A DNA stretch of 47,277 nt from assembly GCF_000934845.1 (NCBI RefSeq), contig NZ_JXIQ01000020.1:1-47277 (forward strand). The letters are read 5' to 3'. Source of the stretch: Mesobacillus subterraneus. GTDB lineage: Bacteria; Bacillota; Bacilli; Bacillales; Cytobacillaceae. Positions within the stretch are counted from its first letter, which is position 1; each line of letters opens with the position of its first letter. The translations under genes were made by a program, and so were the position numbers. Under the pieces are notes generated by a model. It had not been told where the DNA came from, made no database searches, and saw only the letters and a program-made list of their open reading frames with translations. Of this stretch, positions 14,697 to 46,880 are shown one piece after another.

Positions 14697-14771
14697 AAAC
14701 CCGGTTATTTTGACAGGTTTGGGTCGATGGAGTGAAAAGTTGTCAAGAAAGCAACGGTTTCTTGACAACTT
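14697..14771 (+). repeat. Covarying 41-nt hairpin repeat (family B), one full and one partial unit
   Basis: The full unit is 14708-14748: arm TTTTGAC, 27-nt loop starting AGGTTTGGG and ending AAGTT, arm GTCAAGA. It is preceded by the 11-nt linker AAACCCGGTTA and followed by the 11-nt linker AAGCAACGGTT and a further arm TCTTGAC (14760-14766), which pairs perfectly with GTCAAGA. A 14-bp inverted repeat (14737-14750 with 14758-14771) results. The rest of the 14628-15145 gap holds only the suf promoter; I see no gene in it. Confidence 0.75.
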
Positions 14772-15035
14772 ATTGGAACTAATAAAAAAAGCTGTCAAAA
14801 TTATTCGAATGAGGATAACTGCCCAGATGCTTTCGAGTACATTTTTTTACAAGAGAAGGCAAAAATAATACAAGCTTGTGAAGCTTTGTCTGATAAAATA
14901 TAGGTAGACTGTTGCAGCGCCGTTTTGCTCAAATAAACGAAGTGGAAAAAGGCCGGCTTGTGCTCCTTATTCGCAGCATTAATGAAAAATTCCTACTTTT
15001 CAAGTTTTGTCGTATTTCTTTTCACTGCTTAAGTG

Positions 15036-15064
15036 TTGCTATCACTTTTCATTTGTTATAAGAT
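15036..15064 (+). promoter_or_regulatory. Putative sufCDSUB promoter
   Basis: TTGCTA (15036-15041) and TAAGAT (15059-15064) are 17 bp apart, about 80 bp before the sufC start. An alternative -10, TATAAG at 15057, has a 15-bp spacer. The match is moderate. Confidence 0.4.
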
Positions 15065-15145
15065 TGTAATGAGAATAAATTGAGAATAGAAATTTTGACG
15101 GCAAGAGCCGGCTTAAATCTTTTCTATATTGATGGAGGTAATAGT

Positions 15146-15931
15146 ATGGCAGGATCTGTATTATCAATTAAGGACCTTGAGGTTGAGATTGAAGGCAAGC
15201 AGATATTAAATGGGATAAACCTGGAAGTAAAGGGTGGAGAGATTCACGCGATCATGGGACCAAATGGTACTGGCAAATCTACTTTGTCGTCCTCTATCAT
15301 GGGTCATCCTAAATATAAAGTAACAAAAGGTACAGTTATGCTAGATGGCAAGGATGTTCTTGAAATGGAAGTAGATGAGCGAGCGCGTGCTGGTTTATTC
15401 CTTGCGATGCAGTATCCAAGCGAAATCAGCGGTGTTACAAATGCTGACTTCCTTCGTTCGGCGTTGAACAGCCGCCTTGGCGAAGGAAACGAAATTTCGC
15501 TAATGAAATTCATTCGCAAGATGGATAAGCAAATGGAATTCCTTGAAATGGATCTTGATATGGCACAGCGTTATCTTAACGAAGGTTTTTCCGGCGGTGA
15601 GAAAAAACGCAATGAAATCCTTCAATTAATGATGCTTGAACCAAAGATTGCAATCCTTGATGAAATCGACTCAGGTCTTGATATCGACGCTTTGAAAGTT
15701 GTTTCTAAAGGGATCAATGAAATGCGCAATGAAGATTTCGGATGCTTGATTATCACTCACTATCAGCGCCTGCTTGATTACATCACTCCTGACTATGTTC
15801 ATGTCATGATGCAGGGACGCATTGTTAAATCCGGCGGACCGGAGCTGGCGCAGCGCCTAGAAGCAGAAGGATATGACTGGATTAAGAAAGAACTGGGCAT
15901 CGAGGACGAAACAGTTGGGCAAGAAGCTTAA
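15146..15931 (+). CDS. sufC: Fe-S cluster assembly ATPase SufC
   Basis: A 261-residue ABC-type ATPase, equal in length to B. subtilis SufC. It works as a soluble complex with SufB and SufD, where iron-sulfur clusters are built. Walker A is GPNGTGKST, the signature FSGGEKKRNEI, Walker B IAILDEIDSGLD. The frame is open upstream to 15080 but GGAGG (15134-15138) fixes the ATG at 15146, giving the family start MAGSVLSIKDLEV. First gene of sufCDSUB; 18 bp separate it from sufD. Confidence 0.95.
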   Translation: MAGSVLSIKDLEVEIEGKQILNGINLEVKGGEIHAIMGPNGTGKSTLSSSIMGHPKYKVTKGTVMLDGKDVLEMEVDERARAGLFLAMQYPSEISGVTNADFLRSALNSRLGEGNEISLMKFIRKMDKQMEFLEMDLDMAQRYLNEGFSGGEKKRNEILQLMMLEPKIAILDEIDSGLDIDALKVVSKGINEMRNEDFGCLIITHYQRLLDYITPDYVHVMMQGRIVKSGGPELAQRLEAEGYDWIKKELGIEDETVGQEA

Positions 15932-15949
15932 GCGGCGGGGGGATTTATA

Positions 15950-17257
15950 ATGACTACGGAAACAAAATGGGCTTTTGACCAGGAGTACATTACTTCCTTC
16001 TCAAAAGAAATGAATGAGCCGGCTTGGCTGACAGAACTTCGGGTACAATCACTAGCAATAGCAGAAGACCTTTCCTTGCCAAGACCGGAAAAAACGAAAA
16101 TAGATAAATGGAACTTCACTCAGTTTGAAAAACTTCTTGTGAAAAGCGATATTTTTTCAGCTGTCGATGATCTTCCAGAAGAGGTAAAAGCACTTGTGGA
16201 CATGGAAGCAAAGGACAGCAGCCTGTATGTCCAGCGCAACAACAAGCCTGCATACCTCCAGCTTTCAAAAGAAATGCAGGAGCAGGGTGTGATTTTTACC
16301 GATATTTTCACAGCGGCACGCGAATACAGCGACCTGCTGAAGAAATACTTCATGACAGCTGTCAAATCTGACGAGCATCGCTTGACTGCTCTTCACACTG
16401 CATTCATGAACGGCGGGGCATTCCTTTATGTTCCGAAAAACGTACAGCTGAACAACCCAATCCAGGCAATCTTCCTGCATGATGATGCAGAAGCGAACCT
16501 TTTCAACCACGTGCTGGTTGTAGCTGAAGATAATAGTTCTTTGACTTATGTCGAAAACTATTTTTCTACAACAGGAAAAGTGAATGGATTGGTCAACATC
16601 GTAACAGAAGCATTTGCTGGCCAAAACGCGAAAATTCAGTACGGTGCAGTGGATACATTAGCGGAAGGCCTGACTACCTATGTGAACCGCCGCGGTATTG
16701 CCGGAAGAGATGCAAGGATCGAATGGGCTCTTGGCTTGATGAATGACGGCAACACTATTTCTGATAATCTTACCAATCTGATTGGCGACGGTTCCTACTG
16801 TGATATGAAAACAGTTGCTATCGGACGGGGCGAACAGACGCAGAACTTCACGACAAGCATCATCCATTTTGGCAAAAACTCGAATGGCTTTATCCTTAAG
16901 CATGGCGTTGTGAAGGATAGCGCTACCTCTATTTTTAACGGAATCGGAAAAATCGAGCACGGCGCTTCTAAGTCAAATGCGGAGCAAGAATCACGTGTGC
17001 TCATGCTCAGTGAAAAAGCGCGCGGAGACGCGAACCCGATTCTTTTGATTGATGAAGATGATGTAACAGCAGGTCACGCTGCTTCGGTAGGACGCGTTGA
17101 TCCATTACAGCTTTACTACTTGATGAGCCGAGGTATTTCGAAGCATGAGGCTGAACGCCTTGTCATCCATGGATTCCTTGCACCGGTTGTTAATGAACTT
17201 CCAATTGAGGGAGTAAAAAAGCAGTTGGTTGAGGTAATCGAAAGGAAAGTTAAATAA
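15950..17257 (+). CDS. sufD: Fe-S cluster assembly protein SufD
   Basis: A 435-residue SUF beta-helix protein, partner of SufB and SufC in the scaffold complex. The C-terminal block [40 protein letters not shown] is the SufB/D core domain; it ends with [29 protein letters not shown] precedes the ATG. Its TAA overlaps the sufS ATG by one base (TAATG), so the two are translationally coupled. Confidence 0.94.
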
Positions 17258-45343: not shown

Positions 45344-45361
45344 TAGTGAAAAATATCACAA
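45344..45361 (+). promoter_or_regulatory. Candidate Rex operator before yumB
   Basis: TAGTGAA-AAAT-ATCACAA matches the Rex consensus TTGTGAA-N4-TTCACAA at all but two positions. It lies 72 bp before the yumB start, after the predicted promoter. Rex senses the NADH/NAD+ ratio, and its control of ndh in B. subtilis makes this plausible. Confidence 0.5.
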
Positions 45362-45432
45362 ACTCATACAGGAATAATGGCTACCAAGAAAAAGGAAACC
45401 AAAAATATTTTAAAAAGGTGGAAGTGATCACT

Positions 45433-46650
45433 TTGAGAAAGCCAAAGATCGTAATTTTAGGAGCAGGATACGGGGGATTAATGACAGCAACCCGTTTACA
45501 AAAAACTGTTGGAGTAAACGAGGCGGACATAGTCCTTATCAACAAAAATGATTACCATTATGAAACTACATGGCTCCATGAGGCATCTGCTGGTACCTTG
45601 CATCATGACAGAGTCCGCTATGATGTTCGTGATGTAATTGATCGGCATAAGGTGGAGTTCATCCAGGGATCTGTTGAAGAAATAAAGATGGACGAAAAGC
45701 GGGTCATCCTTGAGAACGGGGACATTGAATATGATTACCTTGTCATCGCCCTTGGTGCTGAATCTGAAACTTTCGGTATCAAAGGTTTGAAAGAGTATGC
45801 TTTCTCGATCGTCAATGTCAACTCAGCTAGACAAATTCGGGAGCATATTGAATATCAATTTGCAACATACAATACAGAAGTCGAAAAGAAGGATGAGCGC
45901 TTAACGATTGTGGTAGGCGGTGCGGGCTTTACTGGAATCGAGTTTCTTGGTGAACTGGCAAATCGTGTTCCGGAGCTTTGCCGAGAATATGATGTAGATT
46001 ACCATAAAGTCAAAATGATATGTGTGGAAGCTGCTCCGATGGTTCTGCCTGGATTTGACCCCGAGCTAGTGGACTATGCGGTTGCTACTCTTGAGAAAAA
46101 AGGGGTGGAATTCCGCATCGGTACAGCAATTAAAGAAGCGACCCCAGAAGGCATCATTGTTGCTAAAGGCGAAGATGATGTAGAAGAAATCAAAGCTTCC
46201 ACAGTTGTTTGGGCAGCAGGTGTCCGAGGAAACTCTGTTATCGAAAAATCAGGAATCGAAGCTATGCGCGGCCGTGTGAAAGTGCAGCCAGATCTTCGTC
46301 TCCCTGGTTCTGAAGATGTATTCATTGTCGGTGACTGTTCGTTGATCATCAACGAAGAAATCAACCGCCCATATCCTCCGACTGCCCAAATTGCGATGCA
46401 GCAGGGTGAAGTGTGTGCGAGAAATCTTGCTGCATTAGTCCGTGGCAAGTCAGAACTTGAAACATTCACTCCAGACATTAAAGGAACAGTTTGCTCGCTT
46501 GGTGAGGATGACGCGATCGGGGTAGCGTTTGGCAAGAAAATGGTTGGTACAAAAGCATCCTTCATGAAAAAAATGATCGACAACCGTGCGCTTTATATGA
46601 TTGGCGGACCATCAATGGTGCTTAAAAAAGGGAAATTCAATATACTTTAA
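45433..46650 (+). CDS. yumB: Type II NADH dehydrogenase YumB
   Basis: A 405-residue respiratory flavoprotein (B. subtilis YumB has about 406). It passes electrons from NADH to menaquinone. FAD site [21 protein letters not shown] site [20 protein letters not shown]; second FAD motif [10 protein letters not shown]; the quinone-site region [14 protein letters not shown] is conserved. The start is TTG 45433, after AAGGTGG, giving the family N-terminus [14 protein letters not shown]; the open frame reaches to 45334, and GTG 45424 is less well spaced. Divergent from yumC. Confidence 0.92.
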
Positions 46651-46660
46651 TCGATGTACT

Positions 46661-46694
46661 AAAACAGGCTCTAGCGGTGGGCCTGTTTTTCTTT
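46661..46694 (+). terminator. Terminator of yumB
   Basis: AAAACAGGC (46661-46669) pairs with GCCTGTTTT (46681-46689), followed by TCTTTT. Confidence 0.88.
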
Positions 46695-46755
46695 TGGCCA
46701 AGACCAGTAAATGCTTTCTATTAAGAAAAGCACAGCTAATGGCATGCATCAGTGT

Positions 46756-46880
46756 TAACTTCGGACAGGTTTAGTGGAAAAAGCGGACAAGTAGTCCGAA
46801 CTAGGGCCAAGTTCGGACAGGTTTAGCGGGAAAAAGGGAAAAGTAGTCCGAACTAGAGTCAACTTCGGACAGGTTTAGCA
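46756..46880 (+). repeat. Covarying 41-nt hairpin repeat (family C), 52-bp tandem
   Basis: Two full hairpins lie at 46760-46800 and 46812-46852, and a left half at 46864-46880. Arms are TTCGGAC and GTCCGAA (perfect); the 27-nt loops start AGGTTTAG and end AAGTA. Linkers of exactly 11 nt (CTAGGGCCAAG, CTAGAGTCAAC) give a 52-bp period. Same length, loop start and linker size as the units at 14.7 and 22.6 kb, but different arms. It lies in the 46651-47065 gap. Confidence 0.88.

Follow-up and report, generated by a model that had tools for sequence, protein, structure and literature searches.

Three arrays of a palindromic unit of 41 nt were found in a 47,277-nt stretch of the Mesobacillus subterraneus genome (contig NZ_JXIQ01000020.1, forward strand; hereafter the window), and their features suggest a previously undescribed chromosome element that acts at the level of DNA rather than RNA. 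The initial annotation of the window had regarded the units as a selected hairpin, either an RNA or the substrate of a mobilizing enzyme of the repetitive extragenic palindrome (REP) type. Of this proposal, a size-constrained palindromic unit with some compensatory changes, occurring genus-wide and beyond, could be retained, while the RNA and the REP substrate could not. The geometry of the arrays, the constraint on unit length and the orientation of the units instead point to a DNA-level element working like the tandem bacterial interspersed mosaic elements (BIMEs) of E. coli, that is, to a phased palindromic array bound by a host factor. We give this reading, in which both the factor and its function are putative, a probability of about 0.4. 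A search of the open-access literature with a limited set of terms turned up no published account of the repeat.

The spacing of the units is nearly invariant. Between neighbouring units, 590 of 598 steps measured 52 bp, and 4,531 substitution differences were counted across these 590 pairs, with only eight length changes beside them; per site, the differences amounted to 0.24 in the loop and 0.23 in the linker versus 0.06 in the arms and core. As our first spacing detector was gapless, the count was repeated with anchors only and with indels tolerated, which gave 52 bp in 481 of 502 steps (51 bp in 14 and 53 bp in five) and a core offset of 25 in 559 of 577 cases. Because the 52-bp spacing was held while the loops diverged, the length of the unit appears to be constrained, and the free variation in length that the initial annotation had named as a sign against its hairpin was not seen.

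A step of 52 bp corresponds to about five turns of B-DNA, so that all copies in an array would present the same face. A putative DNA-binding protein of the host, or a gyrase-type topology enzyme, could bind the arms cooperatively along the array, presumably to the benefit of the cell, and the preferred orientation of the units would link this putative binder to the way in which the replication fork travels. Arrays may grow and shrink through slippage or unequal recombination, with selection holding the unit length and the arms while the loops drift. Slippage and unequal crossing-over might also sustain a neutral or selfish tandem satellite, in which template switching at quasipalindromes, and not functional selection, would restore the complementarity of the arms. 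The arm classes, shared by the units of one array, are in favor of such a satellite, but the few length changes beside thousands of substitutions are not, and neither is the recurrence of this geometry, around unrelated interiors, in further family-level groups of the order, nor a stem mismatch kept in the genus that template switching should presumably have removed; we consider this explanation unlikely.

With regard to copy number, a strict core, GACAGGTTT-N14..24-AAGTWGTC, occurs 59 times in the M. subterraneus genome (26 forward, 33 reverse), while the reversed pattern used as a control does not occur, and a score matrix built from 98 units found no unit reaching the score threshold in 945,540 bases of random first-order sequence. 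The strict core was detected in 19 of the 21 genomes of the genus, and a covariance-model search, in which about 33 candidates were scored per genome, was positive in the same 19 as well as in 21 further genomes of the 193 of the family, so that the additional copies on which the initial annotation had made its proposal depend do exist. The complete genome G005 alone holds 293 cores, 33 of the AAGTWGTC type and 260 of the AAGCTGTC type (control 0). In a contig scan, at least 107 loci were recovered, 25 of which hold a unit at a score of at least 24, and the rest look like chance.

Across the order, the arm pattern TTCGGACA-N24..27-GTCCGAA, which fixes the arms and is therefore silent on their variation, matched 35 of 397 genomes of the order (reversed control: at most two per strand per genome). 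At least five matches were present in 28 of these 35, spread over eight family-level groups, and the remaining seven had one or two, those of G364 lying in a small array revealed by a looser pattern. The 52-bp step recurs in the listed arrays of G293, G340, G390 and G495. Within the family, most of the 21 model-selected loci from 15 genomes have a step of 51 or 52 bp, three of the 21 being weak (L298, L304 and L312) and L303 having no step; other arms also exist, such as TTGGGAC/GTCCCAA in G040. Genome G018, a member of the genus, displayed 162 matches to the TTCGGACA pattern in each direction and only 21 matches to the genus model, so that the interiors of its units seem to diverge from those of the rest of the genus.

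Most arrays are intergenic, a predicted open reading frame (ORF) of at least 90 amino acids spanning 7 of 93 array clusters (89 stretches) and none of the others, and a number of their sites are shared between species. When nine clusters linked to ribosomal RNA (rRNA) genes are excluded, homologous genes immediately flank the arrays of different species on both sides in nine groups of sites and on one side in a further six; these groups include the first array of the window together with sites in G005, G007 and G011. A looser test of shared neighbourhood yielded 18 groups, including one formed by rRNA operons, the 3′ ends of which carry arrays in G005, G009 and G011. The flanking genes are varied (ptsI, clpX, paaX and genes for an acyl-CoA dehydrogenase and an MFS transporter), and five of ten flanking-gene identities tested gave no match at 1e-20.

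The units are also mostly oriented with replication. The replication axis was derived from dnaA and dif (presumed consensus, up to three mismatches), both located in six complete genomes, and orientation was read in four of these genomes from 60 regions picked by exact-core or model matches. The unit strand was the leading strand in 59 of 62 array clusters, compared with 279 of 361 supported genes codirectional with replication in the same regions (p = 0.00013, unmerged); after merging of loci by hand, 36 of 39 clusters ran with replication (p = 0.013 against the same genes). Replication was followed by 11 of the 13 clusters whose upstream gene is opposed and by three of the four with both flanking genes opposed. 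Strict matches read by hand in G003 and G020 agreed in 12 of 14 clusters, the other two having pyrimidine-rich loops and an uncertain strand, and outside the genus all four loci of G082 and all six of those listed for G341 are consistent with this, in genomes whose contig begins with dnaA and in which no dif was located. For the draft genome of M. subterraneus itself, orientation can be assessed by orthology only: the neighbour gene of the third window array matches a minus-strand gene of G005 at 3.93 Mb, past dif (2.40 Mb), and the plus strand of the window, which carries the four complete units, is therefore probably the leading strand. Strand composition was considered as the cause of this apparent orientation. 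Intergenic DNA nearby has only a slight excess of G on its leading strand (G 0.226, C 0.184) compared with the loop (G 0.386, C 0.129; column 10, G 0.90), so that skew seems insufficient on its own, though it could still sharpen the bias.

In the window, the three arrays and the terminator-like sites near them comprise the following features:

14645–14673, plus strand: intrinsic-terminator-like hairpin upstream of array 1
14708–14748, plus strand: 41-nt unit with class A arms TTTTGAC/GTCAAGA (score 48.8)
14760–14800, strand unsure: degenerate second unit of array 1, TCTTGAC...GTCAAAA, exactly 52 bp on
22567–22607, plus strand: partial unit with a well-kept 3′ half, 52 bp before the full unit of array 2
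22619–22659, plus strand: 41-nt unit with class A arms TTTTGAC/GTCGAGA
22671–22684, plus strand: truncated unit, 5′ half only
46661–46689, plus strand: intrinsic-terminator-like hairpin upstream of array 3
46760–46800, plus strand: 41-nt unit with class B arms TTCGGAC/GTCCGAA
46801–46811, plus strand: 11-nt linker of array 3, forming with the arms a 25-nt hairpin at 46794–46818
46812–46852, plus strand: 41-nt unit with class B arms TTCGGAC/GTCCGAA
46864–46879, plus strand: truncated third unit of array 3, 5′ half only

The four complete units, with 7-nt arms and a 27-nt interior, are those first annotated, and their reported sequences, the 11-nt linkers and the 52-bp tandem period were all confirmed. 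The orientation of the unit at 14760–14800 is unsure because the minus strand gives a better score. While the length of the reported 27-nt loop is correct, it is not open throughout: further potential pairs, GACAG.TTT/AAA.YTGTC, lie inside it around a G.G mismatch at columns 10 and 32 (occupied by G in 90% and 99%, respectively, of the 389 distinct units from the genus), resulting in a stem of about 12 interrupted pairs and an open loop of 15 nt. Other genera frequently lack these inner pairs and retain mainly the outer arms. Array 1 sits between a metQ-like gene on its 5′ side and sufC on its 3′ side, array 2 is followed by an HD-domain gene, and array 3 comes after a gene for an ndh-like oxidoreductase; several of the database matches behind the gene identities in the window are below curated cut-offs, and ndh and yuiA serve as presumed names.

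A codirectional predicted ORF lies upstream of all three window arrays, as would suit a structured RNA or a hairpin in a 3′ untranslated region serving as a terminator, a processing signal or a regulatory RNA, and compensatory changes in the arms exceed those of shuffled alignments in two measures (see below). However, two of the three arrays lie beyond a terminator-like site on the plus strand (none was found at array 2), the units of the window had no Rfam match either at the gathering cut-off or at an E-value of 10, and RNAalifold predicted 0 pairs and thus no consensus fold for 98 units. As the orientation is, moreover, kept with replication in most clusters with an opposed upstream gene, an RNA is very unlikely.

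Covariation of the arms turned out to be weaker than the four window units suggest. Some compensatory changes are present, but the arms do not always stay complementary, as had been proposed: two arm classes dominate, and at the two variable pairs about 30% of the cells are unpaired (29 and 34 of the 98 units). Neither the number of cells with changes on both sides (59 versus 29.2 in shuffles) nor the covariation score (0.178 versus 0.131) was reached in any of 500 shuffles, whereas two of the five measures did not rise above them, namely double-change pairs (4 versus 3.2, reached in 143 of 500) and additional types of pair (12 versus 11.5, reached in 248 of 500), which are the two measures least prone to effects of relatedness. 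The true unit could also be a hairpin centred on the linker: pairing of the arms over the 11 nt between two units is roughly equal to that inside a unit. Among 115 arrays that no sequence end interrupts, 47 start and finish with whole 41-mers, and the other 68 have a half unit on at least one side. Folded as single-stranded DNA, array 3 reaches −8.1 kcal/mol (z −4.95) at its linker hairpin, its 41-mers reaching −5.0 (folding another way) and −4.9 kcal/mol, while class A gives the reverse picture with −5.7 and −2.6 kcal/mol for the 41-mers and −1.6 kcal/mol for the tested linker hairpin.

The units are short, mostly extragenic palindromes of high copy number, like REPs, and they alternate in regular tandem, like BIME-2, given that their arms alternate at the nearly fixed step described above. 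REP- or REPIN-like elements, moved as single-stranded DNA at the replication fork by a Y1 (HUH) transposase, either a REP-associated tyrosine transposase (RAYT) or an IS200-like enzyme, would explain the palindromes, the orientation and the G.G mismatch kept in the genus; a bulge required for activity is described for E. coli REPs in PMC8266576. The look-up of such enzymes called for by the initial annotation did reveal an IS200 transposase and two RAYT-like proteins in the M. subterraneus genome (77.6 and 64.9 bits, below the cut-off of 80), but none of the 34 stretches around Y1/RAYT genes (about 1.5 kb on each side, a few covering the same gene) holds a unit. The end tags are lacking, GTAG being present at the right end of 53 and CGTC at the left end of two of 718 units, and presence does not track RAYTs: strict cores were found in 15 of 16 genomes with a match to the RAYT query and in four of five without, a query that could have missed more diverged RAYTs. 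Since the tag and transposase tests failed, we did not file the units as REPs in the strict sense, and mobilization of this kind seems quite unlikely.

Returning to a BIME-like array, the closest likeness is with the BIME-2 and REP arrays of E. coli, which, as described in PMC2817692 and PMC8266576, also form interrupted, alternating palindromes with a stem mismatch, arranged in regular tandem, mostly intergenic and present in hundreds per genome; BIME-2 binds gyrase, REPs bind DNA polymerase I and the DNA between REPs binds IHF. In contrast, our units belong to Bacillales, carry no GTAG tag, had no RAYT found nearby, show one nearly fixed 52-bp step and are oriented with replication. Fixed spacings and a replichore-like orientation are also described, in PMC3116915, for the GI/GIII REP arrays of Pseudomonas fluorescens SBW25, with up to 12 units and with all five arrays around 2 Mbp pointing forward and the six around 4 Mbp reversed, but those arrays are few, have steps of 112 and 72 bp and are built of REPs having RAYT partners. 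Short, high-copy stem-loops tagged with GTAG or CGTC, the latter without a known transposase, are covered by PMC3733652, in the main text of which the word Firmicutes does not occur. Our units differ from them in having no tag. The bcr1 repeats of the Bacillus cereus group are likewise dispersed repeats in Bacillaceae. They are longer dispersed mobile elements, not known to form phased arrays, and would differ in this. Likenesses to CRISPR, LexA, Spo0A-box and PurR-box sequences were considered only as background and dropped.

Several observations weigh against a phased array read by a host protein. The binding protein is putative, and the element is dispensable, since two genomes of the genus (G012 and G019) have neither a strict core nor a covariance-model match. 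An array at the 3′ side of the ndh-like gene is present in one of 21 genomes, that of M. subterraneus itself, which means that sites are gained and lost; this turnover and the two genomes without units would also suit a satellite. One strong array (L223, in G007 at 3.32 Mb) and two mixed, low-scoring ones (L225 and L243) face the opposite way, merging of loci leaves a modest excess of orientation beyond what gene direction gives, and the step is 51 bp in some genera.

A second, unrelated palindromic array lies in the window at 33893–34034 on the plus strand. It is composed of three inverted repeats in 53-bp steps, CATAAGGGTA-N16/17-TACCCTTATG, the last being degenerate, with purine-rich spacers, and its palindrome with the 53-bp step was also found in L108 (Bacillus sp. 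ISL-55). This second family would suggest that geometry, and not one sequence, defines the class. Still, an order-wide class of phased palindromic arrays in Bacillales, read in dependence on replication direction by a dedicated putative protein and organizing the chromosome or managing forks, is a doubtful extension. If the arrays do bind a host protein, they would form a large natural set of phased, replication-oriented binding sites, which in some genomes would number a few hundred on each chromosome, and chromosome organization by BIME-like repeats free of a transposase would become testable.

An origin from phages or plasmids was considered and set aside: a single class B query of 161 bases had no match in the phage and plasmid collections. 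A scan of viral contigs gave 113 stretches, with one place each in the 80 listed, which looks like chance. In the M. subterraneus draft, arrays lie at or near contig ends (C2 at 83, C16 at 25, C112 at 90 and C163 at 18802 of 18845), and short-read drafts may break or shorten at arrays, so that units are under-counted. As a practical warning, drafts seem to break at the arrays, and those of the window fall into no matching Rfam family. Near the metQ-like gene, two S-adenosylmethionine riboswitches (RF00162) lie upstream of ORFs on the plus strand, at 9771–9874 and 11385–11499.

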